From contig JALRDO010000011.1 in assembly GCA_023262185.1 (NCBI GenBank), positions 319-64,318 of the forward strand: DNA of 64,000 bases. The letters are read 5' to 3'. Both the position numbers and the translations under genes were made by a program. The DNA comes from Flavobacteriaceae bacterium. GTDB lineage: Bacteria > Bacteroidota > Bacteroidia > Flavobacteriales > Flavobacteriaceae. The stretch's first letter is position 1. Every line of letters starts with the position of its first letter. This document shows, one piece after another, positions 4,335 to 56,502 of the stretch. A model generated the notes under the pieces. That model was not told where the DNA came from, did no database searches, and saw nothing but the letters and a program-made list of their open reading frames with translations.

Positions 4335-4352
4335 AAATTCTAGCGTTGAGGG

Positions 4353-6251: not shown

Positions 6252-6263
6252 GAGATAGTAGAT

Positions 6264-8339: not shown

Positions 8340-8347
8340 TACATTTG
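8340..8347 (+). promoter_or_regulatory. Putative promoter for acpP
   Basis: TACATTTG matches TAnnTTTG and lies 28 nt before the acpP ATG. A TTTG at 8321-8324 could be the -33 element, although the 15-nt spacer is shorter than usual. Confidence 0.6.
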
Positions 8348-8375
8348 CCGAGATATAATTTTTAAAAACGAAGAT

Positions 8376-8609: not shown

Positions 8610-8633
8610 GACCTCAAACGGCTTAAAATTACT

Positions 8634-8667
8634 ATCCATGTGCGCCCAGGTGCACATGGATTTTTTA
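8634..8667 (+). terminator. Intrinsic terminator between acpP and fabF
   Basis: A 10-bp perfect stem (ATCCATGTGC, 8634-8643, with GCACATGGAT, 8652-8661) and an 8-nt loop are followed at once by a run of T. This is a good rho-independent terminator in the plus direction. Read-through or an internal promoter must feed fabF. Confidence 0.8.
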
Positions 8668-8695
8668 TATCTTCAATCGAATAAACACGCTTGTA

Positions 8696-10704: not shown

Positions 10705-11161
10705 GCACATCTTAAAGGTAGCGGTAGATCAAGACGACACCGCGGTCATTGCCTTGCACAGCGAGTTGCCCGATTATCAAATGGCCTTTCGATTGAACAA
10801 AGAATTCGGGATAGGATTGAAGCGCGAAGCTGAAGACCTAGAATACGGTCAAGGGTATTACTTTCCTTGGTACGCTTTCGATCACCAAAAGCACTTTAGC
10901 CGCTATACTTTGATTCAAAATAAGCTCAAAACTTCAATTGACACCAGCACACAAACCGATCTATTCTCGGCAAACGCCTTTGAATCAAATTATTATGTGC
11001 TTCCGGAGTACAAGCGCATCGACTATTTACTTAAAATAGAAGGAGAATCTGAAGATCATTTATCCTTCATCTTAGAGAAACTTAAGGCACTTGATGAAAT
11101 AGTTATGGCCTATGCCCTAAATTCGCAGCAAATCAAGTCAAAAACGAACCTAATCTACTAA
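10697..11161 (+). CDS. IPExxxVDY-family protein of unknown function
   Basis: A 154-residue protein with no signal peptide or membrane segment. The segment LPEYKRIDY, near residue 105, is a variant of the IPExxxVDY motif for which this Bacteroidota family is named (Leu for Ile, Ile for Val). FDHQKHFSRYTLIQNK precedes it. It begins inside rnc (8-nt overlap) and ends 4 nt before pyk, the position this family usually holds. No function is established. The overlap with rnc suggests tight co-expression, but a role in RNA processing would be a guess. Confidence 0.85.
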   Translation: MAKHILKVAVDQDDTAVIALHSELPDYQMAFRLNKEFGIGLKREAEDLEYGQGYYFPWYAFDHQKHFSRYTLIQNKLKTSIDTSTQTDLFSANAFESNYYVLPEYKRIDYLLKIEGESEDHLSFILEKLKALDEIVMAYALNSQQIKSKTNLIY

Positions 11162-11165
11162 TCAC

Positions 11166-12590
11166 ATGTCTTTGAAAAAAACTAAGATACTCGCAACCCT
11201 TGGACCTGCATCTTCTTCTAAAGAAGTGTTGAAAGAAATGATGCTTGCCGGAGCGGATGTTTTTCGTTTGAATTTTTCTCACGCCGATTACGAAGGAGTT
11301 AAAGAAAAGGTGCGCATTATACGTGAATTGAATCAAGAATTAGGTCGTAACACAGGAATTCTGGCGGATCTTCAAGGACCAAAGCTCAGAGTTGGCGCGA
11401 TGAAAGAAGGCGTTGTTCTTGAGCCAGGAGATAAGATTGCATTTAAGACTGGAGAGCGTTTTGAAGGAGACGCCAACGCGGCATACATGACCTATGAGGC
11501 TTTTCCTAGAGATGTGAAGCCAGGAGAGCGCATTTTGCTTGATGACGGTAAGCTCATATTCAAGGTGCTAGACACTAATAAAGTAGATACGGTAACTGCT
11601 GAAGTAGTTCAAGGGGGCCCTTTGAAGTCTAACAAAGGGGTGAACCTACCCAACACCGCTATTTCTTTACCTGCACTTACAGAGAAAGACATAGAAGATG
11701 CCATCTTCGCCATCTCTTTAGAGGTAGATTGGATGGCCCTTTCTTTCGTTCGTCACTCACAAGACATCAAAGACTTACAAGAGCTTATAGCTAAGCATTC
11801 TTCTTACAAGATTCCGATCATTTCAAAAATTGAGAAGCCAGAAGCGATCACCAACATCGACGAAATTGTCGCACACAGTGACGGTATCATGGTGGCTAGA
11901 GGAGACCTCGGGGTTGAGGTTCCTGCAGAAGAAGTTCCGCTATTACAGAAACAACTCGTTCAAAAGTCTAAAGAGGCCAGAATACCTGTGGTCATAGCGA
12001 CTCAGATGATGGAAACCATGATGGACAGTCTCACTCCAACACGCGCTGAGGTAAATGATGTTGGGAACTCGGTCATGGATGGTGCAGATGCGGTAATGCT
12101 CTCAGGAGAAACCTCTGTGGGTAAATATCCTGTGCAGGTAGTTGCCAAAATGGCGGCTATAATTCGTGCGGTTGAAAATGTAGAGACGGTATGCCGTCCG
12201 ACAGCGCTTCCGCGCCTTAAGACAGAACGTTTTGTCACTAAGGCAGTGTGTTATCACGCAGCTGTAATGGCAACTGAGATTCAGGCCAAGGTGATCGGAA
12301 CACTAACCAATTCAGGCTACACGGCCTTTCAGGTTTCTGCATGGCGTCCGAATTCTTATATATTGGCGTTCACCGACAATAAGCATATCTTGGGCCGTTT
12401 GAATCTGCTATGGGGGGTTTACGCCTTCTATTACGACAAGTACAGCTCTACAGACACTACGGTGACAGACATCAATCAGATGGCGAAAGACAAGGGCTTC
12501 ATAGAAACGGGAGACATGGCGATTACACTCACCTCGGTTCCTATTGAAGAAAAAGGAATGGTGAACAGTCTCCGCGTTACCCAAATCTAA
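11166..12590 (+). CDS. pyk: Pyruvate kinase
   Basis: A 474-residue glycolytic enzyme converting phosphoenolpyruvate and ADP to pyruvate and ATP. Visible motifs are KKTKILATLGPAS at the N-terminus, FRLNFSHADYE, ILADLQGPKLRVG, the catalytic-lysine segment IISKIEKPEAI, the metal-binding MVARGDLGVEVP, and IATQMMETMM. The C-terminal regulatory domain is present and of normal size. It is the fifth gene of the acpP-fabF-rnc cluster and is followed 2 nt later by the CYTH gene. Confidence 0.98.
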   Translation: MSLKKTKILATLGPASSSKEVLKEMMLAGADVFRLNFSHADYEGVKEKVRIIRELNQELGRNTGILADLQGPKLRVGAMKEGVVLEPGDKIAFKTGERFEGDANAAYMTYEAFPRDVKPGERILLDDGKLIFKVLDTNKVDTVTAEVVQGGPLKSNKGVNLPNTAISLPALTEKDIEDAIFAISLEVDWMALSFVRHSQDIKDLQELIAKHSSYKIPIISKIEKPEAITNIDEIVAHSDGIMVARGDLGVEVPAEEVPLLQKQLVQKSKEARIPVVIATQMMETMMDSLTPTRAEVNDVGNSVMDGADAVMLSGETSVGKYPVQVVAKMAAIIRAVENVETVCRPTALPRLKTERFVTKAVCYHAAVMATEIQAKVIGTLTNSGYTAFQVSAWRPNSYILAFTDNKHILGRLNLLWGVYAFYYDKYSSTDTTVTDINQMAKDKGFIETGDMAITLTSVPIEEKGMVNSLRVTQI

Positions 12591-12592
12591 GA

Positions 12593-13081
12593 ATGCCGCT
12601 AGAGGTCGAAAAAAAGTTTTTAGTCAAGCCTGAAGTTTTGGCTGTTGAAATTGAGCTTGAAAAGCTTAAAGTCAAGACCTTAAAACAGGCTTATCTCGCT
12701 TCTTCTTCAACTGCGGTGGTGCGTGTTCGACGCGACGAGCGCAAGGCTTACTTAACCGTGAAACAAAGAGCTTCTGGCTTGAAACGCATTGAGGTAGAGC
12801 GAGAGCTTACTATTGCTGAGGCAGAAGAACTATTCGAGCTATGCCCTTCATCTTTGGTAGAAAAACAGCGCTATTACATTCCCTTAAATGAGCTGACAAT
12901 CGAGCTAGACGTTTTCTTGGGAGCAAATGAAGGACTGGTATTGGCCGAGGTTGAATTTGCCGATGAACAACAAGCCGAAGCTTTTATACCGCCCTCTTGG
13001 TTCTCAGATGAAGTCAGTGGAGATTACAGGTATTACAATCATTACCTGAGTGAGCACCCTTATTCGAGCTGGAAGTCTTAA
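12593..13081 (+). CDS. CYTH-domain (triphosphate tunnel) protein
   Basis: A 162-residue protein with the N-terminal ExExK signature (EVEKKF, residues 4-9) and the alternating charged strands of a tunnel fold: VRVRRDERKAYLTVKQ, RIEVERELT, then VLAEVEFADE. Members hydrolyse inorganic triphosphate or thiamine triphosphate, or rarely cyclise ATP. Size and single-domain form fit the bacterial triphosphatase group best. It is probably the last gene of the operon. Its stop overlaps the stop of convergent pheS by 4 nt, leaving no room for a terminator of its own. Confidence 0.88.
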   Translation: MPLEVEKKFLVKPEVLAVEIELEKLKVKTLKQAYLASSSTAVVRVRRDERKAYLTVKQRASGLKRIEVERELTIAEAEELFELCPSSLVEKQRYYIPLNELTIELDVFLGANEGLVLAEVEFADEQQAEAFIPPSWFSDEVSGDYRYYNHYLSEHPYSSWKS

Positions 13082-14100
13082 ACGACCCCTTTGAACTGTT
13101 CTAAAAAGCGCATGTCATTTTCACTTAGCATGCGGATATCTGGAATTTGGTAAAGCAGAAGTGCGATACGATCAATCCCCATTCCGAAGGCATATCCTGA
13201 GTATACCTCTGGATCGATTCCGCAATTGCGCAACACATTAGGGTCTACCATTCCACATCCCATAATTTCTAACCAACCTGTACCCTTGGTCATTCGGTAG
13301 TCGGTTTCTGTCTCTAAGCCCCAATATACATCTACCTCAGCGCTCGGCTCGGTGAAGGGGAAGTAAGATGGGCGAAGCCTGATTTTAGATTTTCCAAAAA
13401 GCTTAGTGGTGAAGTACTGTAAAGTCTGCTTGAGATCTGCGAATGAGACGTCTTTGTCGATGTACAATCCTTCAATCTGATGAAAGAAGCAATGCGATCG
13501 TGCTGAGATATCCTCGTTGCGGTACACTCTACCCGGAGAAATGGTTCGAATAGGAGGTTGATGCTCTTCCATATGGCGCACTTGAACCGACGAGGTATGG
13601 GTGCGAAGCAGTATATCTGGATTGGTCTGAATGAAAAAGGTGTCTTGCATGTCTCTTGCCGGATGGTAGTCGGGCAAGTTTAATGCGGTAAAATTGTGCC
13701 AATCGTCTTCAATTTCGGGACCCTCTGACACCCCAAATCCGATAGAAGAGAAAATATCGATGATCTTATTTCTTACAATACTGATCGGATGACGACTTCC
13801 TAACTCATAAGGAAATCCTGGTCTACTAAGATCAAGTGTAGGCCCTGCAGAAGAGGCTTTAGTGGCAGCACTCTCTTGCTTGAGTTGCTCTACCTTTTCA
13901 GTCGCGGCTTGCTTAAGCCTGTTGATAGCTTGACCTACTGATTTTCGCTCAGAAGCCTCTACGTTCTTAAAGGATGCGAATAAATCGTTCAGCTTTCCTT
14001 TCTTACCGAGATATTCAATCCTAAATGCTTCAATCTCTTTTGGATCGTTACTCTGAAAGGCCTCAACCTGTTTTAATAATTCTTCGATTTGAGCAATCAT
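13078..14100 (-). CDS. pheS: Phenylalanine--tRNA ligase alpha subunit
   Basis: A 340-residue class II synthetase subunit. It has an N-terminal coiled-coil of about 90 residues for tRNA binding, then the catalytic domain with motif 2 (GRVYRNEDISARSHCFFHQIEG) and the C-terminal motif 3 region (GYAFGMGIDRIALL). EGPEIEDDWHNFTALNLP is a PheS marker. It pairs with PheT, whose gene is not in the window, so the subunits are unlinked here. It is convergent and overlaps the CYTH gene by 4 nt. Confidence 0.98.
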   Translation of the reverse strand: MIAQIEELLKQVEAFQSNDPKEIEAFRIEYLGKKGKLNDLFASFKNVEASERKSVGQAINRLKQAATEKVEQLKQESAATKASSAGPTLDLSRPGFPYELGSRHPISIVRNKIIDIFSSIGFGVSEGPEIEDDWHNFTALNLPDYHPARDMQDTFFIQTNPDILLRTHTSSVQVRHMEEHQPPIRTISPGRVYRNEDISARSHCFFHQIEGLYIDKDVSFADLKQTLQYFTTKLFGKSKIRLRPSYFPFTEPSAEVDVYWGLETETDYRMTKGTGWLEIMGCGMVDPNVLRNCGIDPEVYSGYAFGMGIDRIALLLYQIPDIRMLSENDMRFLEQFKGVV

Positions 14101-14185
14101 CGCCTCGTTTTTGGGGCCTTAAAAGTAGTAAAGGATTTTCAAAGACTCTAGCCTGAAGGTCTTCTAAAAGTTAAAACAGCCCTAA

Positions 14186-14193
14186 TAACTTTG
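14186..14193 (+). promoter_or_regulatory. Putative -7 promoter box before the small exported protein
   Basis: TAACTTTG fits TAnnTTTG exactly and stands 45 nt before the ATG at 14239. It probably drives both the small gene and the SulP transporter. Confidence 0.55.
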
Positions 14194-14238
14194 CATGCCG
14201 CGCTCATAGAGTTATATTTATGATACTAATTCAATAGA

Positions 14239-14574
14239 ATGAGTGTTTTGGCGTTATCACGTTTTCAATCCATTATTGCAGCGGTTTTTTTACTTATGTT
14301 TTGTGCGTCTGAATGTTCAATCTTTGCTTTTGAAGTTGACGATATAGTGGTTCAGATAGAACTAGAGACAGAAGACTCTAGTGATGCCGATGAAACCTCT
14401 AAAGTCAATGACCAATTGATTGATGTTTTTTTTAAAGAGGAAAATTCTAATTCACATTTTATAGCTGGTTTAGCAGCATTATTTTCCAACATTCCTAAAG
14501 GTAAAACTTCTTTAGGTTTTTGTGAGACCTTATCTGATCCACCTGAATATAACAATCATCTCACGCTTTTCTAA
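14239..14574 (+). CDS. Small exported protein of unknown function
   Basis: A 111-residue protein I do not recognise. Residues 9-24 (FQSIIAAVFLLMFCAS) are a hydrophobic stretch that can serve as a signal peptide or membrane anchor. The remainder is acidic (IELETEDSSDADETS) and ends SDPPEYNNHLTLF. It precedes the SulP gene by 73 nt and shares its A+T-rich composition, unlike the genes on either side. A hairpin with CCCC/GGGG arms at 14619-14630 stands between the two. The pairing suggests an accessory role at the membrane for the transporter, but this is inference from context only. Confidence 0.65.
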   Translation: MSVLALSRFQSIIAAVFLLMFCASECSIFAFEVDDIVVQIELETEDSSDADETSKVNDQLIDVFFKEENSNSHFIAGLAALFSNIPKGKTSLGFCETLSDPPEYNNHLTLF

Positions 14575-44838: not shown

Positions 44839-44846
44839 TACTTTTA
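44839..44846 (+). promoter_or_regulatory. Weak -7-like box 4 nt before the uvrC ATG
   Basis: TACTTTTA differs from TAnnTTTG at the last base and ends exactly 4 nt before the ATG at 44851. No good -33 element is seen. Confidence 0.3.
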
Positions 44847-44850
44847 CATC

Positions 44851-46659
44851 ATGTCTGAACGCAAGTCTTCTGCTCCTCTGGCTATTCAAGTTGCCTCTTT
44901 GCCCAATACACCGGGGGTCTACCAGTTTTTTGACGACAAAGAATCGCTGCTGTATGTCGGTAAAGCTAAAGACTTAAAAAAACGCGTCTCTTCTTACTTT
45001 TCTAAACATCACGAATACGGAAAGACCCGAGTGATGGTTTCAAAAATCGCCTCGATTCAACATATTGTTGTTGCCACAGAGTCAGATGCATTGCTGCTAG
45101 AGAACTCAATGATAAAGCAACATCAGCCTCGATACAACGTGCTGCTTAAAGACGATAAGACCTATCCGTATATCTGTATTAAGAACGAGGCTTTTCCTCG
45201 TGTATTTGCAACGAGAAGGCGCATTGACGACGGATCAAAGTACTTTGGGCCTTACACCTCAATGAAGACCGTGAAGACCTTGCTAGAACTCATCCGATCG
45301 GTATATCCGCTGAGAAGTTGTAATTACGATTTAAGTGAAGAGAAGGTGCAAGCCAAAAGGTACAAGCTGTGTTTAGAATACCATATCGGCAACTGCGGAG
45401 GACCTTGTCAAGCCTTACAGTCAGAAAAATCGTATGACGACCAGATTGAGGCGATTGAAGGGATTATAAAAGGAAACATTCGTCCCTCTTTGCAGGTACT
45501 TGAGAAAAGGATGCACAATTACGCGGCTACACTCGAATTTGAAAAAGCGCAAGCCGTAAAAGAGAAAATACGCATACTGAAGGCTTATCAAGCGAAGTCA
45601 ACAGTCGTAAATCCTAAGATCACAGCAGTAGACGTGTTTACCATTCTCGATGATGTCCAGCACGCCTATGTTAATTATCTGCAGGTACAAGAGGGTGCCG
45701 TTGTAATGTCGAACACCTTCGAGTTTAAGAAAAAGCTCGACGAGAGCCAAAAAGACCTTCTGAGCCTAGCGATCGTAGAGTTGAGAGCGCGCTATAACGC
45801 TCAATCGAAGACACTGTTCTTGCCGTTTGCTGTTTCTGTTTCTGATGAGCTAAAGGTTGAAATCCCCAAGCTTGGAGATAAGAAAAGTCTGGTAGATCTG
45901 TCATTGCGCAATGCCAAATTTTACAGGCAAGACCGCCTTAAGCAAATGAAGGTGGTCGATCCAGACCGTCATGCGAACCGTATTTTAGAACAGGCGAAAG
46001 TTGACCTTCGACTCAATGCACTTCCGGTCCATATCGAATGCTTTGACAATTCGAATATCCAAGGGACAAATCCGGCCTCAGCATGCGTGGTATTTAAAAA
46101 TGCGAAGCCTTCGAAGGCTGATTATCGCAAGTTTACTATTAAGACTGTCAAGGGTCCTAACGATTTTGCGAGTATGGAAGAGGTGGTTTACAGGCGTTAC
46201 CGAAGACTTTTAGAAGAAGGTGAAAACCTTCCGCAATTGATCGTCATTGACGGCGGTAAAGGTCAGCTATCCTCGGCCTTGAAGTCACTAGAAATTTTAG
46301 GGTTGCGAAGAAAGATTGCCATTATAGGTATTGCAAAGCGCCTAGAGGAAATTTACTTTCCCGGAGACAGTGTTCCGCTCTATTTAGACAAGCGTTCTGA
46401 AACGCTCAAACTTATCCAACAACTTCGCAATGAGGCACACCGTTTTTCACTTAAGTTTCACCGTCAAAAACGAAGCGCTACAGCCATTCAAAGTGAGTTA
46501 GAGCAAGTGCCAGGGATAGGAACTAAAACCGCAGATAAATTGTTACGACATTTTAAGAGCGTTTCGAAGATTAAGAATGCTCCTATAGAGGCTTTGTTGT
46601 CTACAGTCACCTCTTCTCAAGCACAGGCGATACGATCTTTTTTTGACGCTCAGAAGTGA
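44851..46659 (+). CDS. uvrC: UvrABC excinuclease subunit C
   Basis: A 602-residue nuclease making both incisions in nucleotide-excision repair. The GIY-YIG domain is at the start (PGVYQFFDDK, LLYVGKAKDLKKRVSSYF), a UvrB-binding UVR helix lies near 205-240, an RNase H-like domain (IECFDNSNIQGTNPASACVVF and LIVIDGGKGQL) follows, and a helix-hairpin-helix pair closes the protein (VPGIGTKTADKLL). I set the start at ATG 44851 (MSERKSS); an upstream in-frame codon at 44791 would add 20 residues without homology and overlap the cyclo-ligase start. Confidence 0.96.
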   Translation: MSERKSSAPLAIQVASLPNTPGVYQFFDDKESLLYVGKAKDLKKRVSSYFSKHHEYGKTRVMVSKIASIQHIVVATESDALLLENSMIKQHQPRYNVLLKDDKTYPYICIKNEAFPRVFATRRRIDDGSKYFGPYTSMKTVKTLLELIRSVYPLRSCNYDLSEEKVQAKRYKLCLEYHIGNCGGPCQALQSEKSYDDQIEAIEGIIKGNIRPSLQVLEKRMHNYAATLEFEKAQAVKEKIRILKAYQAKSTVVNPKITAVDVFTILDDVQHAYVNYLQVQEGAVVMSNTFEFKKKLDESQKDLLSLAIVELRARYNAQSKTLFLPFAVSVSDELKVEIPKLGDKKSLVDLSLRNAKFYRQDRLKQMKVVDPDRHANRILEQAKVDLRLNALPVHIECFDNSNIQGTNPASACVVFKNAKPSKADYRKFTIKTVKGPNDFASMEEVVYRRYRRLLEEGENLPQLIVIDGGKGQLSSALKSLEILGLRRKIAIIGIAKRLEEIYFPGDSVPLYLDKRSETLKLIQQLRNEAHRFSLKFHRQKRSATAIQSELEQVPGIGTKTADKLLRHFKSVSKIKNAPIEALLSTVTSSQAQAIRSFFDAQK

Positions 46660-46700
46660 GCAGTAAAAGATTTGATTATCAATTACTTCAAAGGTTAAAT

Positions 46701-46719
46701 AACGTTAAAATTTAACGTT
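46701..46719. repeat. Perfect palindrome downstream of uvrC
   Basis: Two 9-nt arms (AACGTTAAA and TTTAACGTT) around a single A. It covers the stop codon of a possible small minus-strand ORF. It could be an operator, or a weak terminator in the minus direction. Confidence 0.5.
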
Positions 46720-46794
46720 TTGGGGACGCCTTTTTGTAACTTTCTTCAAGAATCTCAAAAGTGGTCGATACCAAGCTATCTTTTGTTTTTTCAT
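46705..46794 (-). CDS. Possible 29-residue basic small protein
   Basis: The frame starts MKKQKIAWYRPLLRFLKK and ends NVKF, with 11 Lys/Arg in 29 residues and an amphipathic look. The sequence before its ATG on minus (AACCAACCAAACTTTAAATC) is A/C-rich, like many efficient Bacteroidota leaders. Its stop lies in a perfect palindrome. No promoter box was found and the family is unknown to me. It could also be chance, since short frames are common. Confidence 0.3.
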   Translation of the reverse strand: MKKQKIAWYRPLLRFLKKVTKRRPQNVKF

Positions 46795-46820
46795 GATTTA
46801 AAGTTTGGTTGGTTAGTAAG

Positions 46821-46851
46821 AAAAGCCCCGGCAGCCTGTCTGGGCTTTTTT
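46821..46851 (+). terminator. Intrinsic terminator before the DUF3108 gene
   Basis: AAAAGCCC (46821-46828) pairs with GGGCTTTT (46842-46849), with a 13-nt loop, followed by more T. It lies 162 nt after the uvrC stop, so it ends a long uvrC 3' untranslated region or a separate short RNA. The opposite strand also has a short T run. Confidence 0.75.
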
Positions 46852-46856
46852 AATGC

Positions 46857-46864
46857 TAAATTTG
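46857..46864 (+). promoter_or_regulatory. Putative -7 promoter box for the DUF3108 gene
   Basis: TAAATTTG fits TAnnTTTG. It lies between an early in-frame ATG (46853) and the ATG pair at 46880/46883, which shows that the later start is the likely one. Confidence 0.6.
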
Positions 46865-46879
46865 CAGAAAAATAGAGCC

Positions 46880-47671
46880 ATGATGCGCTACTTTTTAGGT
46901 ATACTCCTCTCGGCTTCTCTACTCTCTTTTGGGTATGCTCAGGAGAAGGACCCTCATCAAACCTTTCAGTCAGGTGAGTGGTTGAAGTACCGCTTACACT
47001 ATGGATTTCTAAACGCTAGCTATGCTACACTTTCGGTAAAAGACACGATTTTTGAAGGACAACCAGCCTACCATGCTGTAGGAGAAGGTCGTACGACCGG
47101 ATTTGCTTCTATCTTCTTCAAGGTTGAGGATGTCTATCAAAGCATTTTCTCAGTGGAGCCTATCCGTCCGATATATTTTATAAGAGACATTGACGAAGGC
47201 GGATATACCAAAAACATTGACATCGATTTCGATTTCAAAAAGGAAGCGGCTTTAATCAGAAACAAAAAGAAAGACAGTTCTTTCAGTATTCCTATTCATC
47301 GTAAAATTCAAGATATTCTTTCTGCCACCTATTACTTGCGAGAGAGTTTTGACAAAGAGGATACGGCGGTTGGAGAAGAGGTGGCATTAGACATGCTCTT
47401 TGATGACGATGGCATTTACGATTTTAAGTTGCTATATCTGGGCGAGGAGGTTGTTAAAACCGCCTTTGGTAAAGTCAAGTGTCTTGCCTTTAGGCCCTTA
47501 GTAAAATCAGGACGAATTTTTCGTGCCGAAGAATCCTTAACCCTTTGGGTAAGTGATGATGCCAATCGCGTTCCCATTCGAATTCAGGCCGACCTGCGAT
47601 TTGGGTCGATCAAGGCTGATCTAGATGCCTTTGAGGGGCTTAAGCACTCTTTTATGGTCTTAGGAGATTAA
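46880..47671 (+). CDS. DUF3108 domain-containing exported protein
   Basis: A 263-residue protein with a signal peptide (MMRYFLGILLSASLLSFGYAQ). It has the DUF3108 pattern: GEWLKYRLHYGFLNASYATL, then VKDTIFEGQPAYHAVGEGRT, and the late AEESLTLWVSDDANRVPIRIQADL segment. The family is periplasmic or outer-membrane, beta-barrel-like, and of unknown function. The start is set at 46880 because a TAnnTTTG box precedes it by 15 nt; the ATG at 46853 is upstream of that box. It is followed 52 nt later by the M23 gene. Confidence 0.85.
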   Translation: MMRYFLGILLSASLLSFGYAQEKDPHQTFQSGEWLKYRLHYGFLNASYATLSVKDTIFEGQPAYHAVGEGRTTGFASIFFKVEDVYQSIFSVEPIRPIYFIRDIDEGGYTKNIDIDFDFKKEAALIRNKKKDSSFSIPIHRKIQDILSATYYLRESFDKEDTAVGEEVALDMLFDDDGIYDFKLLYLGEEVVKTAFGKVKCLAFRPLVKSGRIFRAEESLTLWVSDDANRVPIRIQADLRFGSIKADLDAFEGLKHSFMVLGD

Positions 47672-47688
47672 TTCTACTGTACCACAAG

Positions 47689-47719
47689 TTGACAGCTCAT
47701 GGTAAATGCTCGAATTTTG
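47689..47719 (+). promoter_or_regulatory. Putative promoter for the M23 peptidase
   Basis: TTG at 47689-47691 and GAATTTTG at 47712-47719 (one mismatch to TAnnTTTG) are 20 nt apart. The box ends exactly 4 nt before the ATG at 47724. Confidence 0.45.
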
Positions 47720-47723
47720 TAAA

Positions 47724-49022
47724 ATGTCTAGATCGTATTTTTTACTTGTAGCTATTGTCGGATTGCTCTTTTCATGTGGATCAGCAGAAGAGGCAGATAG
47801 CACATCAGCAGAAGAGGTTAAAATGCCTGTTGATATGCAATTTGGGTTTGACATGATTTCTTATGAAGTGGAGTACGACACGATTCGCAGAGGAGATACC
47901 TTCGGAAAGATCATGCTTGGTCGAGACGCCGATTACCAAAAAGTAGATCAAGCGGCTCGCGCTTCACGCTCTTCATTTGACCTACGAAAAATTCAGGTCG
48001 GAAAGCCGTATCGCATCCTTAGAACTTGTGACGATGAGCAACGCCCTGTAGTTTTCATTTACGAAAACGACTTTCTTAACTACACTGTCGCAGACTTGCG
48101 AGATGAGGTCAAGGTATACGAAGAAAAACACCCTTATGATTTGGTGGAGCGTCAGCTCTCAGGGGTTATTGAGGGGTCTTTATACGAAACCCTACAGCGT
48201 CAAGGAATTGATCAGAACCTGAGCCAAGAATTGGCAAATATTTACGCATGGAACATTGACTTTTTCAGACTATACGAAGGAGACAAGTTTAAAGTTATTG
48301 CCCACGAACGCAGGCTTCGAGACGGAACTATGGCGGGCATAAAGTCGATCAAAGCTGCGGTATTTGAGCACCAAGGAGAAACGTATTACGCCTTTGCAGC
48401 CAATATTAATGAGAAGACACTTCAGACCGAATACTACGATGAAGAAGGAGAAAGTTTGAGAAGGACCTTTCTAAAAGCCCCATTAAAATTCAATGCTTAC
48501 CGTATCTCTTCGCGCTACAACTTGCAGCGAAAAATTGCCTTTTACGGCAATCGCACAAGAGCCCACAAAGGAACTGACTACGCCGCGCCAGTGGGCACAC
48601 CTATCATTGCCACGGCAAACGGAGAAGTCATTGAAGCTACACGTAGAGGAGGCAACGGTATTTATGCCAAGATTCGTCACAACGTCACCTATAGCACCCA
48701 GTATTTACACATGCGTGCTCTGAATGTCAAAAAAGGACAGCGTGTGAAACAAGGTGATATCATAGGTTGGATCGGAATGACCGGAAACACATCAGGCCCT
48801 CACGTTTGCTATCGCTTTTGGAAAAATGGCAGACAGGTTGATCCTTTACAAGAAAAACTCCCTGCGGCCGCTCCTATAGCCAAGTCTTTCGCCAAGGATT
48901 ATTTTGACTACATCAAATTGCCCTTTGAACAACTGGCGTGTATACCATACCCTGGTGAAAATGACTTAAATTCATGGCCTCAAATCTCGATCAAAGACGA
49001 TAATGCCCTTACCTCAAAATAA
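47724..49022 (+). CDS. M23-family metallopeptidase lipoprotein
   Basis: A 432-residue protein with a lipoprotein leader (lipobox LFSC, Cys18), an N-terminal LysM-like/helical region of about 230 residues, and a C-terminal LytM domain. The zinc site has HKGTD (His and Asp), YLHMRA and GPHVCYRFW, where the usual second His of HxH is Cys. The start at 47724 gives a normal leader; an ATG at 47706 precedes the promoter box. M23 enzymes cut peptidoglycan cross-links or act as amidase activators. Its end overlaps pgi by 20 nt. Confidence 0.88.
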   Translation: MSRSYFLLVAIVGLLFSCGSAEEADSTSAEEVKMPVDMQFGFDMISYEVEYDTIRRGDTFGKIMLGRDADYQKVDQAARASRSSFDLRKIQVGKPYRILRTCDDEQRPVVFIYENDFLNYTVADLRDEVKVYEEKHPYDLVERQLSGVIEGSLYETLQRQGIDQNLSQELANIYAWNIDFFRLYEGDKFKVIAHERRLRDGTMAGIKSIKAAVFEHQGETYYAFAANINEKTLQTEYYDEEGESLRRTFLKAPLKFNAYRISSRYNLQRKIAFYGNRTRAHKGTDYAAPVGTPIIATANGEVIEATRRGGNGIYAKIRHNVTYSTQYLHMRALNVKKGQRVKQGDIIGWIGMTGNTSGPHVCYRFWKNGRQVDPLQEKLPAAAPIAKSFAKDYFDYIKLPFEQLACIPYPGENDLNSWPQISIKDDNALTSK

Positions 49023-50637
49023 TCCAGAGCAAAGCCCTAGTTGGGCAAGGCTCAAGACGCTAGCGAACACCCTAAATTCTACAACCCTCATTGAGCTCTT
49101 TAAGAATGATGCAAAACGCACGTCGAATATGAGCATCGAATGGAAGGACTTTTATGTAGACTTCTCAAAAAATCTGATTACTGAAGAGGCTTGGAACGCT
49201 CTTTATGAATTGGCGGCATACGCTGATTTGGATGCTGCAATAAATGCATATTTTAATGGAGACTTGATTAATGAAACCGAAGGAAGAGCCGTTCTTCACA
49301 CGGCCTTAAGAGCCGCTCATAGCGATGCAAAGGTCAATGGAGAAGAGGTGAACGAAGAGGTGGCTGATGTCAAGCGTCGCATTCAAGCGTTATCTGATGC
49401 CGTCATTTCTGGAGCAAAAAAAGGGTACACCAATAAACCCTTCACAGACATTGTAAACATTGGAATCGGCGGATCTGACTTAGGCCCAGTAATGGTTACT
49501 GAGGCCCTTGCCCACTATAAAAATCACTTGAAGGTGCATTTTATGAGCAATGTAGATCCAGATCATAGTGTTGAAGTCTTGAAAGGATTAAATCCTGAAA
49601 CCACATTATTTCTAGTGGTTTCAAAGTCTTTTGGTACCCAAGAAACCTTAATGAATGCCCAAACCGTTCGACGTTGGTTTGTCGAAAAGGCTTCTGAAGA
49701 GGCAATAGCTGCACACTTTGCTGCAGTCTCAACAAATCTGACTCAAACCTCAAGCTTTGGAATTTCTAATGACATGGTGTTTCCAATGGCAGACTGGGTC
49801 GGAGGAAGATTTTCGTTGTGGAGTGCAGTAGGCCTGTCGATTGCATTAAGTGTAGGCTATGAACATTTTGAGGCCTTGCTCGCAGGAGCCGCCGCCATGG
49901 ATCAGCACTTTGCAGAGGCCCCTGCAGCAGAGAATCTTCCGGTAAAAATGGCACTGCTTGGAATATGGTATACCAATTTTATGCAGGCTGAAACAGAGGC
50001 AGTCATCCCTTACACACAATACCTACATCGTTTTTCAGCATATCTGCAACAGGCTTCAATGGAGAGCAACGGAAAATCGACTTCACGTTCTGGAAAGGTT
50101 GTATCGTATCAAACGGGTTCTATTGTTTGGGGGGAGCCCGGAACAAATTCGCAACACGCCTTTTTTCAATTGATTCATCAAGGAACAAAACTCATCCCTT
50201 GTGATTTTATAGGTTTTAGGACTTCTCTCAATAAAAACCAACCCCACCAAGATGCCTTGATGGCAAACTTTTTTGCTCAGACTGAGGCGCTCATGAAAGG
50301 AAAGACTATTGAAGAGGTGACCGCTGAATTCGTTGAGAAAGGGGTTGAGCTGAAGTCAGTACAATACATTATCCCTCACAAGGTATTTGCAGGAAATAAG
50401 CCTACAACTACCTTCTTAATTGAATCCCTGACCCCTTACAATCTCGGGGCACTTATCAGTGCATATGAGCATAAGATATTCGTTCAAGGAGTTGTTTGGA
50501 ATGTGTTCAGCTACGATCAATGGGGGGTAGAACTCGGAAAGCAATTGGCTAACCGTATACTTGCTGAATGGCAAAATGGAACCTTTGCCGAACACGATCA
50601 GTCGACCCAAGCCTTGTTGAAGCGTTACAAAAATTGA
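49003..50637 (+). CDS. pgi: Glucose-6-phosphate isomerase
   Basis: A 544-residue enzyme interconverting glucose 6-phosphate and fructose 6-phosphate. Signatures: VNIGIGGSDLGPVMVTEAL, FLVVSKSFGTQETL, VGGRFSLWSAVGLSIAL, the catalytic Glu in SMESNGKS and His in PGTNSQHAFFQLIHQG, and QGVVWNVFSYDQWGVELGK. Length is normal. The ATG at 49003 lies within the M23 coding end; the overlap of 20 nt implies coupling. Confidence 0.98.
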   Translation: MPLPQNNPEQSPSWARLKTLANTLNSTTLIELFKNDAKRTSNMSIEWKDFYVDFSKNLITEEAWNALYELAAYADLDAAINAYFNGDLINETEGRAVLHTALRAAHSDAKVNGEEVNEEVADVKRRIQALSDAVISGAKKGYTNKPFTDIVNIGIGGSDLGPVMVTEALAHYKNHLKVHFMSNVDPDHSVEVLKGLNPETTLFLVVSKSFGTQETLMNAQTVRRWFVEKASEEAIAAHFAAVSTNLTQTSSFGISNDMVFPMADWVGGRFSLWSAVGLSIALSVGYEHFEALLAGAAAMDQHFAEAPAAENLPVKMALLGIWYTNFMQAETEAVIPYTQYLHRFSAYLQQASMESNGKSTSRSGKVVSYQTGSIVWGEPGTNSQHAFFQLIHQGTKLIPCDFIGFRTSLNKNQPHQDALMANFFAQTEALMKGKTIEEVTAEFVEKGVELKSVQYIIPHKVFAGNKPTTTFLIESLTPYNLGALISAYEHKIFVQGVVWNVFSYDQWGVELGKQLANRILAEWQNGTFAEHDQSTQALLKRYKN

Positions 50638-50668
50638 TTAAATTCAAAGAACTAAATCACCTTAACCT

Positions 50669-51103
50669 ATGAATACCATTATCTCTCTACACTCTTATAT
50701 TGCTTTTCTAGCCTTGAGCGTTGTGCTATTAGCATTCGTCAATGCGCTTAATGGATTTCTTACGGGTCGCGAATTCATAGACTCTAGAGACCGCAAACTT
50801 TCTCTAGCTGGAGTTGCTTTCTTTCACTTGCAGTTTCTAATTGGTGTAGTGGTTTACTTTACTTCGGCCAAAGGATTTCATGCGATTGCTGAATTGGGAA
50901 TAGGGGGATTGAATGCTGCTGCGCGATTGACGGCGCTCGAACACCCAGTAACCAATATTATCGCTGTAGCTTTAGTTACAGTGGGGTGGTCGCGTCATAA
51001 AAAGACGTCTGACAACAAAGCGAAGTTCAAGAGCATTGCCCTTTTCTACGGCATAGGACTACTCATGATCCTCAGTCGTATTCCTTGGGGACAGTGGTCT
51101 TAA
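50669..51103 (+). CDS. Small membrane protein, cytochrome b-like
   Basis: A 144-residue protein with four membrane spans (about 7-27, 45-65, 92-108 and 120-138). Histidines 8, 53, 71 and 92 stand at or near span ends, as required for haem binding. It resembles proteins annotated as cytochrome B in Bacteroidota, but haem binding is inferred. It follows pgi by 31 nt. Its 3' end overlaps the tail of a nuclease remnant on minus by 32 nt. Confidence 0.7.
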   Translation: MNTIISLHSYIAFLALSVVLLAFVNALNGFLTGREFIDSRDRKLSLAGVAFFHLQFLIGVVVYFTSAKGFHAIAELGIGGLNAAARLTALEHPVTNIIAVALVTVGWSRHKKTSDNKAKFKSIALFYGIGLLMILSRIPWGQWS

Positions 51104-51330
51104 GCAGGGCGATCACCGGAAAGTGATCGCTGTATCCTCCGCTGTATTGAGTTCCGACATAGGTTCTAAACGGATAGTTTTTATACCTCCCATTTTTCTG
51201 AGTCAAAAAGGGCCTTTTAAACACGCCCGCCCCTGTGAGTTGTAGGGCACCCTCTGTTTTAAAGTTTGGGGTAAAGATGAGCTGGTCAAAGAGGTGCCAG
51301 CGATCTTGACGCGCAAGAGGTTTCTCATGT
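51072..51330 (-). pseudogene. C-terminal remnant of an endonuclease/exonuclease/phosphatase-family protein
   Basis: About 86 codons on minus end in a TGA (51072-51074). They encode WHLFDQLIFTPNF, then FKRPFLTQKNGRYKNYPFRTY and GGYSDHFPVIA, the last third of an EEP-fold nuclease including the catalytic Asp-His (SDHFP). Homology fades before 51330 and the frame is closed by a TAG at 51360-51362. No start codon or N-terminal domain is present. It appears truncated at a junction with the LTD remnant on the other strand. Confidence 0.75.
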
Positions 51331-51331
51331 G

Positions 51332-51721
51332 ATAGATCTTTCAGGAATGTATGTGCCGCCTAAATCACCCCTGGTTATTGCTGCGCATGCCGAAGGCTTT
51401 ATGGCCCTTTATGGTTTTCAGCCGCATCTGGTGGCAGGCTCTAATAGTGCCGCAAATTCTAACGGAGACGATACCATAGCCCTAGTGAATCCGAGTGGAC
51501 AGGTCGTTGACCTCTTTGGTCAGATCGGAATTGACGGTAGCGGAACTGCTCATGAGTTTGAAGACGGTAGAGCTCTAAGAGTCCCCGGGGTGTTGAGAGG
51601 ATCTCAAAGCTTTAAGCCTTCAGAATGGATCATTCACAATGATACGGGATCATCAGGGACGATTAAGCAACCTTTAAGCGCTCCTCAAGATTACAATCCA
51701 GGAACGCATTTAATCGAGTAA
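51332..51721 (+). pseudogene. C-terminal remnant of a lamin-tail-domain (LTD) protein
   Basis: The fragment begins at IDLSG and encodes most of an LTD fold: SPLVIAAHAEGFMALYGF, NGDDTIALV, VVDLFGQIG, then EFEDGRALRVPGV and PSEWIIHNDTG. It ends APQDYNPGTHLIE with TAA. LTD domains occur in extracellular nucleases and T9SS-type surface proteins of Bacteroidota. A GTG at 51329 could start translation, but no signal peptide or N-terminal half exists. It lies back to back with the nuclease remnant. The 3' end overlaps the Ig-like gene by 12 nt (convergent). Confidence 0.7.
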
Positions 51722-53353
51722 TTTGAAGTTTAGCCGCTCCTCCCAATTCGCTCGAACCTCTATGGTTTCGGGAACATAAATAATGCGTTCTGGTTCGCGC
51801 TTTTGAAGAAAGTTTCCGGTATCATAGCGCCTATTTCCGTTACTGTCGACAGTGATCCTTATCGAATATTTTCCGGGATTTACGTATTCAAAGACGGCGT
51901 CTTGTGCTGAGGTAATATAGACCTGCTGTACAAAGGTGTCTTTCTCATCTAAAAGTTCGATGAGCATTGGATAGTCATTCGGCTTTGCGTTTTCAAGTTC
52001 AAAGCGCAAAGTTCCAAAATCTTCTAATGCCTTAAAGTTGAATTGAAACGAGAGACTGTCATTCGTCTGCTCAAAGTAATCTTGAATGGCCCCGGGCAGC
52101 ATGGCCATTCGATAAGAGTCCTCTGGCTTTGGCTCAAGCTCTAGTGTCAGCGTTCTACGATCAGCCCCTATAGCAAAGACGTTACTGAGTTGTATGGTGT
52201 CAGATAAAGTCAATGCAATAAGGCTACTGTCTATTTCTTTAATCGGGGTGCTGCTTCGAAACTGCACACGCTCATTAAGCGCTAGACTTGATTTTGAGAT
52301 CATCTTGAAGGTGAGCGTGTCTTTGTCAAGACGCCCAACCGGTTTTACCTTAAAAGTATCAATCGCCTGACCTCCTGCTAGCGTGAACAGCAAAGAATCA
52401 ACCTTTGAGGGTGCTTCAAACCAGAAGTTGAGGCTGTCTTTGTCCGCTACCTTCTCTGTAAAACTCCATAAAGAGTCTACTTGAGATAAAAGCTCTAGTC
52501 TTGGCAGGCTGTCTAGATCAGATTGGTAGCCGAAGGTGATATGATTTGAGCCTGTAAACTTTGGACGCTCAGCCTTAAAGAGAACCTTTTCTTTGAAGAG
52601 TTCAAGTAAATAAAGACTATCTGTGGGCAGCGTGATCGGCTTTTTCAGAAAGGCGAGCTTATCGAGATACGGATCGTATTTGTTATTCTTGTTCTCGTCT
52701 TTCAAGGCAAACATGTAATAAGAACCTTTGCTTAGAAAACTCAATTCAAAAGTGGGTAGGCTATCTAAGGTGGTGGTCAGGTAACGCGGTGGCTGCTTGT
52801 AAATGATAGAGTCGGTATAACTTGTATCATTGGCGTATAAGACCACGTTGATGTACTCCTCGGCCTTTCTCAGGTAAGCATCTTTAACCATACCCTTTAG
52901 GTTAAGCGAATCGATTTGTTCACCGGTCGCCATCACATAATTGAGGTAGGGATACGGATTCTCTTCGTTATTGTCTACCACGGCATTCCCAAAGTAAAAG
53001 CTATAGGTCGTATTGGGTAGCAGGCTATCTTGAAGTTCTATCTCAAGGTATTTGCTTGGGCTGGCCTGTGGACTTAGAATGGGAGCTGTACCCATCGGCG
53101 GAGAAACCAAGAACTGATCTTCAACGCCTTTGAATTTGATGTACTCATCGAAGTAAATTCGGATGCGTTCTCCTTTGAAATTGGTGCTTCCTAAAGGAGG
53201 ATCAGCCTTTATGATCACAGGAGGTATGGTGTCTTTAGCTCCCCCACTCGGGGTGCCGCGTTTTGCACAAGACACGACCATCAGCACAATAAAAATCAAT
53301 CCCAAAAAGGGAGTTGCTTTTGAAAACCAAGAGGTGTTGTGCTGCTGCTTCAC
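51710..53353 (-). CDS. Ig-like domain lipoprotein
   Basis: About 547 residues. A lipoprotein leader (ATPFLGLIFIVLMVVSC) is followed by GGAKDTIPPVIIKADPPLGSTNF, the start of a Big_5/Ig-like domain, and a long beta-rich region. The family is common in Bacteroidota and probably faces the periplasm or outer surface; its function is unknown. I chose GTG at 53353: it leaves a normal 12-residue basic region and a 19-nt gap after comF, whereas the ATG at 53401 gives a 28-residue lead and overlaps comF by 29 nt. The longer start cannot be excluded. Confidence 0.82.
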   Translation of the reverse strand: MKQQHNTSWFSKATPFLGLIFIVLMVVSCAKRGTPSGGAKDTIPPVIIKADPPLGSTNFKGERIRIYFDEYIKFKGVEDQFLVSPPMGTAPILSPQASPSKYLEIELQDSLLPNTTYSFYFGNAVVDNNEENPYPYLNYVMATGEQIDSLNLKGMVKDAYLRKAEEYINVVLYANDTSYTDSIIYKQPPRYLTTTLDSLPTFELSFLSKGSYYMFALKDENKNNKYDPYLDKLAFLKKPITLPTDSLYLLELFKEKVLFKAERPKFTGSNHITFGYQSDLDSLPRLELLSQVDSLWSFTEKVADKDSLNFWFEAPSKVDSLLFTLAGGQAIDTFKVKPVGRLDKDTLTFKMISKSSLALNERVQFRSSTPIKEIDSSLIALTLSDTIQLSNVFAIGADRRTLTLELEPKPEDSYRMAMLPGAIQDYFEQTNDSLSFQFNFKALEDFGTLRFELENAKPNDYPMLIELLDEKDTFVQQVYITSAQDAVFEYVNPGKYSIRITVDSNGNRRYDTGNFLQKREPERIIYVPETIEVRANWEERLNFKLLD

Positions 53354-53372
53354 AAAGGCAAAGAAACGAACT

Positions 53373-54113
53373 TTATGGGTCAAGTGTAACCTTGACCTCA
53401 TATTCTAAAGGTGTAAAGAACAGGCTCAAAAAGCTTACCCTTTCAACGCCTTGATTTTTAAGTTCCCAATAGCATGCCGCCAAGGTGGCTCCAGTAGTGC
53501 ACACATCATCAACAAGCAGCACGTGAAGCCTTTTTTGCTTTTGTGTCACCTTGGCCCGAAACGTTTCGGGTGGTATCTGTGTGCGTTGATGCTTGTCGTT
53601 CAAGGCCTGTGCTGCTTTTCTTTTGGGTTGCAAAAGCAATTTTGAACTGACGGCCACACGCTGTTCTTTTGCAATCTCGCGTGCGATTAATTCAGCAGGA
53701 TTGTATCCTCTTTTTAATTTTTTCAAAAAGTGTGAAGGAACAGGAACGAGGATGTCAAAGTGGTGATGCTCAAAAAATGCGCTTAGCTGTGGACGCGCTA
53801 AAGCACATAGTGTTTTAGCGGCAAACGGTTGTTTCTTGTACTTCAAAGCGTGTAAAATCCGAATCAATTGTGCCGAATAGGCGGTATTGTTGAACGGAGC
53901 ATAGGCGGCCTCTACAATGACTTGATTTGTAAGCTGCAGTCGCATGGGATGAATGCCATTATATTCATAGATTGACAGGTGTATAGAAGATGCGCATGAC
54001 ACACATAAATGAGAATAACTATGCTCAATAATGCGTTCACAGATCATACAATGTTTTGGAAAAAACAGTGCTGCCAGCCCCATGGGATTAAAATTCTGTT
54101 TCTTTTCTGTCAA
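53373..54113 (-). CDS. comF: ComF-family phosphoribosyltransferase-like protein
   Basis: A 246-residue protein with an N-terminal zinc-ribbon-like set of cysteines (HCMICE and CVSCASS) and a C-terminal type I PRT fold: ILVPVPSHFLKKLKRGYNPAE and VLLVDDVCTTGATL. ComF (GntX-like) proteins assist DNA uptake in competent bacteria, acting inside the cell with the translocase. An alternative start at residue 11 (54083) is possible. It precedes the Ig-like lipoprotein. Confidence 0.9.
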   Translation of the reverse strand: MTEKKQNFNPMGLAALFFPKHCMICERIIEHSYSHLCVSCASSIHLSIYEYNGIHPMRLQLTNQVIVEAAYAPFNNTAYSAQLIRILHALKYKKQPFAAKTLCALARPQLSAFFEHHHFDILVPVPSHFLKKLKRGYNPAELIAREIAKEQRVAVSSKLLLQPKRKAAQALNDKHQRTQIPPETFRAKVTQKQKRLHVLLVDDVCTTGATLAACYWELKNQGVERVSFLSLFFTPLEYEVKVTLDP

Positions 54114-54150
54114 AACCCTGCAGTATTGTGATTTGTTGAGGCTATAGCCT

Positions 54151-54179
54151 TTTGAGTCTATGTGATTGTTCTATTTTTG
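54151..54179 (+). promoter_or_regulatory. Putative promoter for glyS
   Basis: TTTG at 54151-54154 and TATTTTTG at 54172-54179 are 17 nt apart. The -7 box ends 16 nt before the glyS ATG. Confidence 0.65.
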
Positions 54180-54195
54180 CCTCAAACAACTCTAC

Positions 54196-55740
54196 ATGAA
54201 GCCAGCTGAAGATCTTTTTAAAAATGTGGTGTCTCACGCAAAGGAATACGGATTTATTTTTCAATCGAGTGAGATATACGATGGCCTGAGCGCGGTTTAT
54301 GATTATGCCCAATTGGGTGTGTTGTTGAAAAACAATATCCGAACCTATTGGTGGGAAGCCATGGTGCGCCTACACGAAAACATTGTAGGGCTCGATGCAG
54401 CCATTCTCATGCATCCGACTACATGGAAGGCTTCAGGGCACGTAGACGCCTTTAACGACCCGCTGATTGACAATAAAGACTCGAAAAAGCGTTACCGCGC
54501 AGATGTACTGATCGAAGATTACGTGGCCAAATTAGAGGCAAAGATTGACAAAGAAGTTCAAAAAGCCGATAAGCGATTTGGAGACGCCTTTGACAAAGAG
54601 CAGTTTTTAGCTACCAACGGAAGAGTGATTGAGATTCGCGAGCGTTCAGAGACTATCATCAAGCGCATGTCAAAGTCGCTCGAAGAAGAGAATCTCGCAG
54701 ATGTTAAGGCGCTGATTGAGGAGCTAGAGATTGTCTGTCCGGTATCGGGTTCTAAAAATTGGACAGAGGTTAAGCAGTTCAATTTGATGTTTGGAACAAA
54801 GCTTGGCGCCTCGGCAGAAAATGCGATGGAGCTCTACCTGAGACCAGAAACGGCCCAAGGGATATTCGTTAACTTCTTGAACGTCCAAAAAACAGGACGA
54901 ATGAAGATTCCCTTCGGAATCGCTCAAACCGGAAAGGCTTTTAGAAATGAGATCGTAGCGCGACAGTTCATCTTTAGAATGCGTGAATTCGAGCAAATGG
55001 AGATGCAGTTTTTTATTCCTCCAGGGACACAAAAAACCTGGTACGAACACTGGAAAGAAACACGCCTTAAATGGCACCTGTCTCTGGGGATGGGCCAAGA
55101 AAATTACCGTTTTCACGATCATGAAAAATTGGCACACTACGCAGATGCAGCTGCAGATATTGAGTTTAAATTTCCATTCGGATTCAAAGAGCTCGAAGGG
55201 ATACACTCTAGGACAGACTTTGATTTAAGTCGACACGAATCGTTTTCAGGCAAAAAGATGCAGTACTACGATGCCGAACAAGAGCAGTCGTACACTCCTT
55301 ATGTCATTGAAACCTCGATAGGGTTAGACCGTATGTTCTTGGCAGTTTTCTCTTCGTCATTGCAAGAAGAAGAGCTCGAGAATGGAACACGCACAGTGAT
55401 GCGTATCCCAGCCGTACTAGCTCCCTACAAAGCAGCAGTACTTCCGCTTGTTAAAAAAGACGGTTTGCCAGAGTTGGCGCATCAGATTATCGACGACCTC
55501 AAATTTGATTTCAACGTGGCATATGATGAAAAGGATGCTGTTGGCCGTCGTTACCGTAGACAAGACGCTATTGGGACTCCTTTTTGTATCACCGTAGATC
55601 ATCAGTCGTTAGAAGATCAGACTGTGACCATCAGACACAGAGATTCTATGGAGCAAGAACGTATTGCCATTAGCGAATTAAAGAACGTGCTTGATCGAGA
55701 AGTCTCGTTAGCAGCATGGCTCAAAAAATTAGAGGCATAG
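54196..55740 (+). CDS. glyS: Glycine--tRNA ligase (dimeric, eukaryote-like type)
   Basis: A 514-residue class II synthetase that charges tRNA-Gly. EYGFIFQSSEIYDGLSAVYDYAQLG, LRPETAQGIFVNF, the motif 2 segment GKAFRNEIVARQFIFRMREFEQME, and the motif 3 region IETSIGLDRMFLAVF are all present, marking the alpha2 GlyRS type. The start is set at MKPAEDLF (54196); an in-frame ATG 30 nt upstream precedes the -7 box. xth begins at the next base after its stop, so the two are co-transcribed. Confidence 0.97.
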   Translation: MKPAEDLFKNVVSHAKEYGFIFQSSEIYDGLSAVYDYAQLGVLLKNNIRTYWWEAMVRLHENIVGLDAAILMHPTTWKASGHVDAFNDPLIDNKDSKKRYRADVLIEDYVAKLEAKIDKEVQKADKRFGDAFDKEQFLATNGRVIEIRERSETIIKRMSKSLEEENLADVKALIEELEIVCPVSGSKNWTEVKQFNLMFGTKLGASAENAMELYLRPETAQGIFVNFLNVQKTGRMKIPFGIAQTGKAFRNEIVARQFIFRMREFEQMEMQFFIPPGTQKTWYEHWKETRLKWHLSLGMGQENYRFHDHEKLAHYADAAADIEFKFPFGFKELEGIHSRTDFDLSRHESFSGKKMQYYDAEQEQSYTPYVIETSIGLDRMFLAVFSSSLQEEELENGTRTVMRIPAVLAPYKAAVLPLVKKDGLPELAHQIIDDLKFDFNVAYDEKDAVGRRYRRQDAIGTPFCITVDHQSLEDQTVTIRHRDSMEQERIAISELKNVLDREVSLAAWLKKLEA

Positions 55741-56502
55741 ATGAAGGTCATCTCGTATAACGTCAACGGTATCCGAGCTGCACTCAATAAGGGATTAGAC
55801 CAGTGGCTGTCTGCGGTGAACGCCGATGTTGTTTGTCTACAAGAAATAAAGGCTACCGAAGATCAGATTGATAAGTCGGCCTTTGAGGCTTTAGGATTTG
55901 AGCATCAATATTATTTCTCGGCACAGAAAAAGGGTTACTCTGGGGTTGCTATTTTGAGCAAGACCAAGCCTGACAAGGTGGTTGAGGGTACGGGTATCGA
56001 CTATATGGATCACGAGGGTAGAAACCTCAGGGCAGATTTTGGCGATATTTCGATCATGAGCATGTATTTGCCATCAGGAACAAATACCGATCGTCTCGAT
56101 TATAAGTTTACCTACATGGACGACTTTTTAGACTATGCGGTGAGCTTGATAAATGAGCGTCCAAAGTTGTTAGTGGTTGGGGATTACAATATCTGTCATC
56201 AAGCTATTGACATACACGATCCGATTCGCAACAAGAACGTATCTGGTTTCTTACCTGAAGAGCGCGAATGGATGACGCGTTTTCTAGATGCTGGATTCAT
56301 CGATTCGTTCCGTCACTTTAACGAAGAGCCGCACCAGTATACCTGGTGGAGTTATCGCGCCAACGCCCGTTCGAACAATAAAGGATGGAGACTCGACTAC
56401 GCCATGGCTTCAGAAGCCTTAGGGGCACATTTGAAAAGAGCTGTTATTCTCTCAGAAGCAGTACATAGCGATCACTGCCCTATTTTAACCGAACTCGCAT
56501 AA
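55741..56502 (+). CDS. xth: Exodeoxyribonuclease III
   Basis: A 253-residue EEP-family AP endonuclease and 3'-5' exonuclease in base excision repair. MKVISYNVNGIRAAL, CLQEIKATEDQ (metal Glu), VVGDYNICHQAIDIHDP and the terminal SDHCPILTEL (catalytic Asp-His) are visible. Length is normal. It abuts the glyS stop and is 3 nt from the aldo/keto reductase. Confidence 0.96.
   Translation: MKVISYNVNGIRAALNKGLDQWLSAVNADVVCLQEIKATEDQIDKSAFEALGFEHQYYFSAQKKGYSGVAILSKTKPDKVVEGTGIDYMDHEGRNLRADFGDISIMSMYLPSGTNTDRLDYKFTYMDDFLDYAVSLINERPKLLVVGDYNICHQAIDIHDPIRNKNVSGFLPEEREWMTRFLDAGFIDSFRHFNEEPHQYTWWSYRANARSNNKGWRLDYAMASEALGAHLKRAVILSEAVHSDHCPILTELA

Follow-up and report, generated by a model that had tools for sequence, protein, structure and literature searches.

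A small-genomed Flavobacteriaceae bacterium (assembly GCA_023262185.1, contig JALRDO010000011.1) carries the scar of a single internal deletion, about 4.2 kb long, which took out most of a three-gene module and left two gene ends facing away from each other. Our confidence in this reading is high, and it attaches to the deletion and not to the function of the module. Gene loss by short homology is ordinary, and the weight of the site lies in what was lost and how often: two of the 11 genomes examined from one small-genome genus have lost the module, each in a separate event. The first-pass annotation of this DNA had recognised the two remnants and proposed a deletion; comparison with relatives adds a lost barrel gene, a short-homology junction, a parallel loss that arose independently and a possible connection with the uptake of DNA during transformation. 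By the window we mean the whole 64,000-nucleotide stretch analysed, which lies in a contig of 67,987 bases; the genome to which it belongs is 1.64 Mb in 87 contigs and 93.84% complete.

The scar and its junction

The features of the site, with the lost barrel gene as it is preserved in the genus relative G008, are these:

50669..51103, plus strand: left flanking gene, 144 aa, without a Pfam match; intact and in the same position in relatives
51072..51308, minus strand: 3' remnant of an EEP-fold nuclease gene (PF19580), the last 78 of 338 codons plus the stop
51308..51316, no strand: deletion junction, from the overlap of the blastn arms and base comparison; the word in the window is GACGCGCAA
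51317..51721, plus strand: 3' remnant of a DUF5689-LTD lipoprotein gene, the last 134 of 451 codons plus the stop
51710..53401, minus strand: right flanking gene, encoding a Big_5/DUF2141 (Ig-like) protein of 563 aa; intact and in the same position in relatives
7311-9689 of the G008 locus L017, plus strand: barrel gene, 792 aa, without a Pfam match

Both remnant frames are open as far as their stops. The minus-strand frame (51308-51075) matches the Pfam family PF19580 (Exo_endo_phos_3) with an E-value of 7.6e-19, over profile positions 237-309 of 311 only; it is 93% identical to residues 257-338 of the G008 nuclease, and its stop end overlaps the left neighbour gene by 32 bases. The lipoprotein remnant is cut within the LTD domain (residues 275-386 in G008). 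Its frame of 130 aa (51329 to 51718) is 92% identical to the end of the G008 protein and 86% to that of a further relative, G005, and its last 12 bases are shared with the Ig-like gene. The annotation of a minus-strand EEP nuclease and a plus-strand LTD protein, each with only its end left, is therefore upheld on both counts. A promoter and terminator scan returned nothing, with no promoter-like site within 50600-51800 by the sigma-70 consensus, which is of limited value here. The remnants presumably encode no working protein.

Comparison with the G008 locus by blastn yields two arms: 44841-51316 of the window corresponds to 1-6477, and 51308-55138 to 10634-14464. The alignment offsets put the missing block at 4165 bp in G008 coordinates and at 4163 in G005, and the flanks are collinear with both relatives at 82-92% DNA identity. 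According to the alignment, the deletion removed about three quarters of the nuclease gene, the divergent intergenic space, the entire barrel gene and about 314 lipoprotein codons. The proposal that a divergent pair had lost the region between its genes in a single event is thus sustained, as is the claim that both breaks fall at one point; the junction itself, earlier placed at 51310-51345, lies at the lower edge of that range, at 51308-51316. A full divergent nuclease/LTD locus, the comparison suggested at the outset, does stand in relatives between the 144-aa gene and the Ig-like gene.

The two arms overlap by 9 bases at the junction in the G008 comparison. In G005 both arms read GATGCGCAA, where the window has GACGCGCAA, and the event therefore resembles an ordinary deletion between short homologies; the arms of G008 are unlike each other within the junction word, so we infer the ancestral word at the time of the deletion. 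Random pairs of breakpoints in the G005 locus (n=200,000), G005 being the better of the two relatives for the word match, overlap by at least 9 bases at a frequency of 8.5e-5 and by at least 6 at 0.0016. The ancestor would have carried an EEP nuclease gene on the minus strand and, divergent from it on the plus strand, the gene for a TonB-dependent-transporter-like barrel followed by that for a DUF5689-LTD lipoprotein. The deletion would have run from the interior of the nuclease gene to the interior of the lipoprotein gene, between two copies of a word of 6-9 bases, with replication slippage or end-joining as the probable mechanism. Overlap with the intact flanking genes may explain why the two 3' ends were kept.

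The deleted stretch has no DNA match elsewhere in the window's own genome, an absence that is not absolute at 93.84% completeness. No DUF5689 was found in that genome, and its sole match to the G008 nuclease protein is the remnant. The barrel protein as query finds matches with E-values of 2e-63 or better in 8 of 10 genus relatives, and only an 18-bit match in the own genome; this match, on contig C22, falls within an 843-aa frame recognised by eye as a likely TonB receptor, and was rejected as a back-up barrel. A second EEP-fold gene, full length, is found 4 kb off at 55741-56502 of the window; it belongs to a different Pfam family from the remnant (PF03372 rather than PF19580) and reads as exodeoxyribonuclease III.

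The deletion is probably young relative to the split from G008. With G005 as outgroup, the window branch of the nuclease remnant has collected 5 synonymous changes and 0 nonsynonymous ones against 6 and 1 on the G008 branch, and the lipoprotein remnant 12 and 5 against 19 and 5. There is no excess of amino-acid changes in the remnants on the window branch, and the counts, small as they are, give no sign of long decay, hence the probable youth of the event. The remnant frames align with G008 without gaps, and the nuclease remnant with G005 with two gap openings. A phosphoribosyltransferase gene nearby (53376-54113; Pfam Pribosyltran over the cut-off), which reads as comF, shows 21 synonymous and 18 nonsynonymous changes on one branch and 25 and 23 on the other, against 53 and 15, and 52 and 18, in the Big_5 gene; this suggests that the comF-like gene is under weaker constraint than its neighbours on both branches.

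The module in relatives and its second loss

G008 and G005 keep the intact locus at the same place. In G008, between the same flanking genes, a 338-aa nuclease is encoded on the minus strand and, divergent from it on the plus strand, a 792-aa protein followed by a 451-aa DUF5689-LTD protein. The nuclease matches PF19580 over its full length (313 bits against a cut-off of 27), and the lipoprotein scores over the cut-off for both DUF5689 (98.2 bits) and LTD (56.6 bits). Sequence searches of solved structures returned weak matches only, with E-values of 0.097 or worse. A structure model of the 792-aa protein, built from an alignment of 14 sequences, is of moderate quality (pLDDT 66.4, pTM 0.71), with residues 1-67 at low confidence. 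A Foldseek search with this model gave TonB-type transporters by title in all 50 of the matches listed, with a best E-value of 1.6e-16 and TM scores of about 0.4-0.6; these include the SusCD (5fq6), B12 (8bmx) and XusA (9gbc) transporters of Bacteroides. On the basis of the model, the protein is read as a TonB-dependent transporter with a poorly modelled N-terminal part. The model of the DUF5689-LTD protein is of low confidence (pLDDT 59.6, pTM 0.37) and was left out of the interpretation.

The same module has been lost a second time within the genus. On a contig of 4608 bases in genome G003, nuclease and lipoprotein genes are again truncated and abutting, with other breakpoints and shorter remnants. 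Set against its sister G001, G003 lacks 4500 bases by the alignment offsets, with 4 shared bases at the junction; overlaps of at least 4 bases arise in random pairs at a frequency of 0.017. A tree of two flanking proteins, the Big_5 protein and a class II tRNA synthetase (GlyS by reading), some rows of it being partial (for example G008 and G001), groups the window's genome, G005 and G008 with full support and sets G001 and G003 together in a separate clade; the branching order inside the former trio is poorly supported (57% or 0.33). Since G008, G005 and G001 are intact, two separate deletions are needed, and by this sequence comparison the losses in the window and in G003 are independent. 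In G001, the Big_5 gene is split across two frames by a frameshift or a sequence error.

All three genes are open in 7 of the 11 genus genomes, and two (the window's and G003) carry scars. In G002 (locus L047), the frames for barrel and DUF5689 are open and that for the EEP nuclease contains one stop codon, which is either a genuine nonsense mutation or an error in the sequence. The remaining genome, G006, gave no EEP or barrel match and was considered as a third loss; its locus is divided between two contig ends, one of which (contig C22) still shows the last part of a nuclease frame, and the genome is counted neither as intact nor as a loss.

Outside the genus the arrangement recurs. Through the Ig-like neighbour gene, 79 named loci were collected. 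At 13 of them nuclease and barrel both fall within the fetched stretch, and in all 13 they are divergent, with a DUF5689 gene adjoining the barrel; eight of these lie outside the genus, in Muricauda, Croceivirga, four Sinomicrobium, a Maribacter MAG and a Bacteroidia MAG. The other named loci comprise 5 with barrel and lipoprotein and without a nuclease in the stretch, the G003 scar, and 60 with none of the three genes in the stretch. Across the family, DUF5689 is present in 138 of 149 genomes of at least 90% completeness. Genomes of at most 2.2 Mb make up 9 of the 11 without DUF5689 and 7 of the 138 with it (Fisher p 7e-9), a figure that uses rounded sizes and a cut picked after the list was seen, counts the window's genome, and ignores relatedness beyond taking mostly one genome per genus. 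The DUF5689 model also matches Bacillus subtilis and Bacteroides ihuae among 14 controls, so the domain itself is no marker of competence.

What the module may have done, and other readings of the site

The likeliest function of the module, to which we give roughly even odds, is that it bound and cleaved extracellular DNA and brought it in through the outer membrane, possibly as the outer-membrane stage of natural transformation. The only directly relevant literature found for the pair of barrel and DUF5689 protein consists of papers on Riemerella. According to the available text of one of these (PMC8459023), the barrel gene RA0C_RS04915 and the DUF5689 gene RA0C_RS04920 of Riemerella anatipestifer form one predicted operon, markerless mutants of either gene show no transformation, and adjacent homologues are reported to be widespread in Flavobacteriaceae. 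The same text records that all the homologues are present in Flavobacterium johnsoniae, for which no competence was detected under the same conditions. Mutants of R. anatipestifer in tonBA and tonBB were reduced in transformation, as far as the accessible part of PMC8383284 goes; its authors suspect iron supply for tonBB. The divergent nuclease adjoining the pair in our loci suggests that it, too, may have a role in uptake.

A bolder version, which we advance tentatively and think unlikely to hold in full, would make the EEP nuclease, barrel and DUF5689-LTD lipoprotein an outer-membrane DNA-uptake gate of the Flavobacteriaceae, with the nuclease cutting DNA at the surface; streamlining lineages would repeatedly drop the whole gate in one step and become non-transformable, and the window and G003 would be losses caught early. 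If the module is such a gate, these genomes are natural knock-outs for the questions of what competence is for, recombination or food, and of when a lineage can afford to lose it. ComEC (PF03772) is found in 10 of the 11 genus genomes, including the window's, the miss being G003 at 75% completeness, and a NamZ_N/DUF1343 gene in 8 of 11, again including the window's. A loss of dprA (PF02481) was also considered, as the gene is over the cut-off in 10 of the 11 genus genomes and missing only from the window's. The matches to its neighbourhood run out precisely where contigs C86 and C10 end, which marks an assembly gap, and the idea of a second competence loss was dropped. Together with dprA, part of recA is absent at these ends (C86 at 82209, C10 at 25442; loci L160 and L161), the gene names coming from family search and reading. 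Given this gap and the retention of comEC and the NamZ_N/DUF1343 gene, the evidence covers the loss of the putative gate only and not a general decay of competence.

Could the junction be an artefact of assembly, with flanks wrongly joined or a minor strain variant assembled? The species of the window is represented by one genome, with the junction known from its assembly alone; the genome is fragmented into its 87 contigs, and its dprA region is missing at a contig break. We nevertheless think this very unlikely: the junction lies in the interior of its contig, the missing DNA is without a match elsewhere in the assembly, and a different deletion of the same module is seen in G003. Moreover, the words used by assemblers are longer than the 6-9 bases shared here, which also counts against an artefact. 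That the short forms are functional small genes is scarcely credible. Their frames are indeed open to the stops, with mostly synonymous changes, but the same short forms are absent as genes from the 10 genus relatives examined (G003 has other remnants, and G006 has the locus at contig ends), and the promoter scan described above was empty. The scar is thus that of a real, ordinary deletion.

A real deletion may still have had nothing to do with competence. The first-pass annotation had suggested that a DNA-scavenging pair may have been lost, which is plausible, although it missed the whole 792-aa barrel gene that went with the pair, and the closest experimental evidence for barrel and DUF5689, in the available text of PMC8459023, concerns natural transformation. 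Somewhat short of an even chance, in our estimate, is the reading that the module served phosphorus or nucleotide scavenging and that its loss was unrelated to competence. The nuclease belongs to the module at all 13 of the 79 named loci that show both nuclease and barrel, and comEC and the NamZ_N/DUF1343 gene are retained in the window's genome. EndA1 and EndA2 of F. johnsoniae, LTD-bearing extracellular nucleases with a pf04231 nuclease domain rather than an EEP one, appear with positive fold values for phosphate depletion in the part of PMC8115612 available. Against this, retention of comEC is expected if the loss is young, the distribution of DUF5689 (138 of 149 genomes of the family) suits a basic role no worse than an optional one, and the only knock-out data found for the pair are an absence of detectable transformation (PMC8459023, available text). 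It is also conceivable, if improbable, that selection favoured loss of the barrel, for instance if phages or bacteriocins used it as their receptor. Phages are known to exploit TonB-dependent transporters in this way, and selection would account for two independent losses among 11 species-level genomes; however, small genomes predominate among those lacking DUF5689, an indication of streamlining, with the size cut picked after the list was seen.

Comparison with known systems

Deletions between short homologies (microhomologies) are known in bacterial genomes, and those described here are alike in being single deletions, with 6-9 shared junction bases in the window and 4 in G003; no difference was found. 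The lost module also resembles the pairs of TonB transporter and surface lipoprotein of Bacteroidota (SusCD, B12, XusA/XusB) in the predicted barrel fold, as matched by the model, and in the adjoining lipoprotein gene; it differs from them in that the lipoprotein is DUF5689-LTD by Pfam and the barrel is without a Pfam match. A likeness to ExeM/NucH, LTD-bearing extracellular nucleases, extends to both the LTD and the EEP part, each of which resembles portions of their models; the scores here are far under the curated cut-offs, and EEP and LTD are on separate proteins. For the lipoprotein there is a further partial likeness, to the M949_1556 family: its NCBIfam model (NF052645) overlaps the DUF5689 part of the relatives' lipoproteins far below the cut-off, with 59.8 bits in G008 and 207.9 and 170 in two named relatives against a cut-off of 475. 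The Riemerella lipoprotein M949_1556 is cited, in the accessible portions of PMC12566107 and PMC4976936, as linked to LPS and antigenicity, which is a different role.

The closest likeness in arrangement and proposed role is to RA0C_RS04915/RS04920, with a barrel and then an adjoining DUF5689 protein, a likeness by domain description and adjacency and not by sequence. RS04915 is described with a carboxypeptidase-regulatory-like domain; among the barrels of four named relatives (908-914 aa), two match this domain at the curated cut-off, one falls just under it and one has no match, while the genus barrel (G008, 792 aa) is without it. In a comparison of the G008 barrel with loci L059, L065 and L066, the domain is N-terminal in some of the larger relatives. 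RS04920 is described with DUF5689 and DUF5017/choice-of-anchor J, where the lipoprotein here has DUF5689 and LTD. The module here includes a nuclease, and the available text of PMC8459023 makes no mention of one beside the Riemerella pair.
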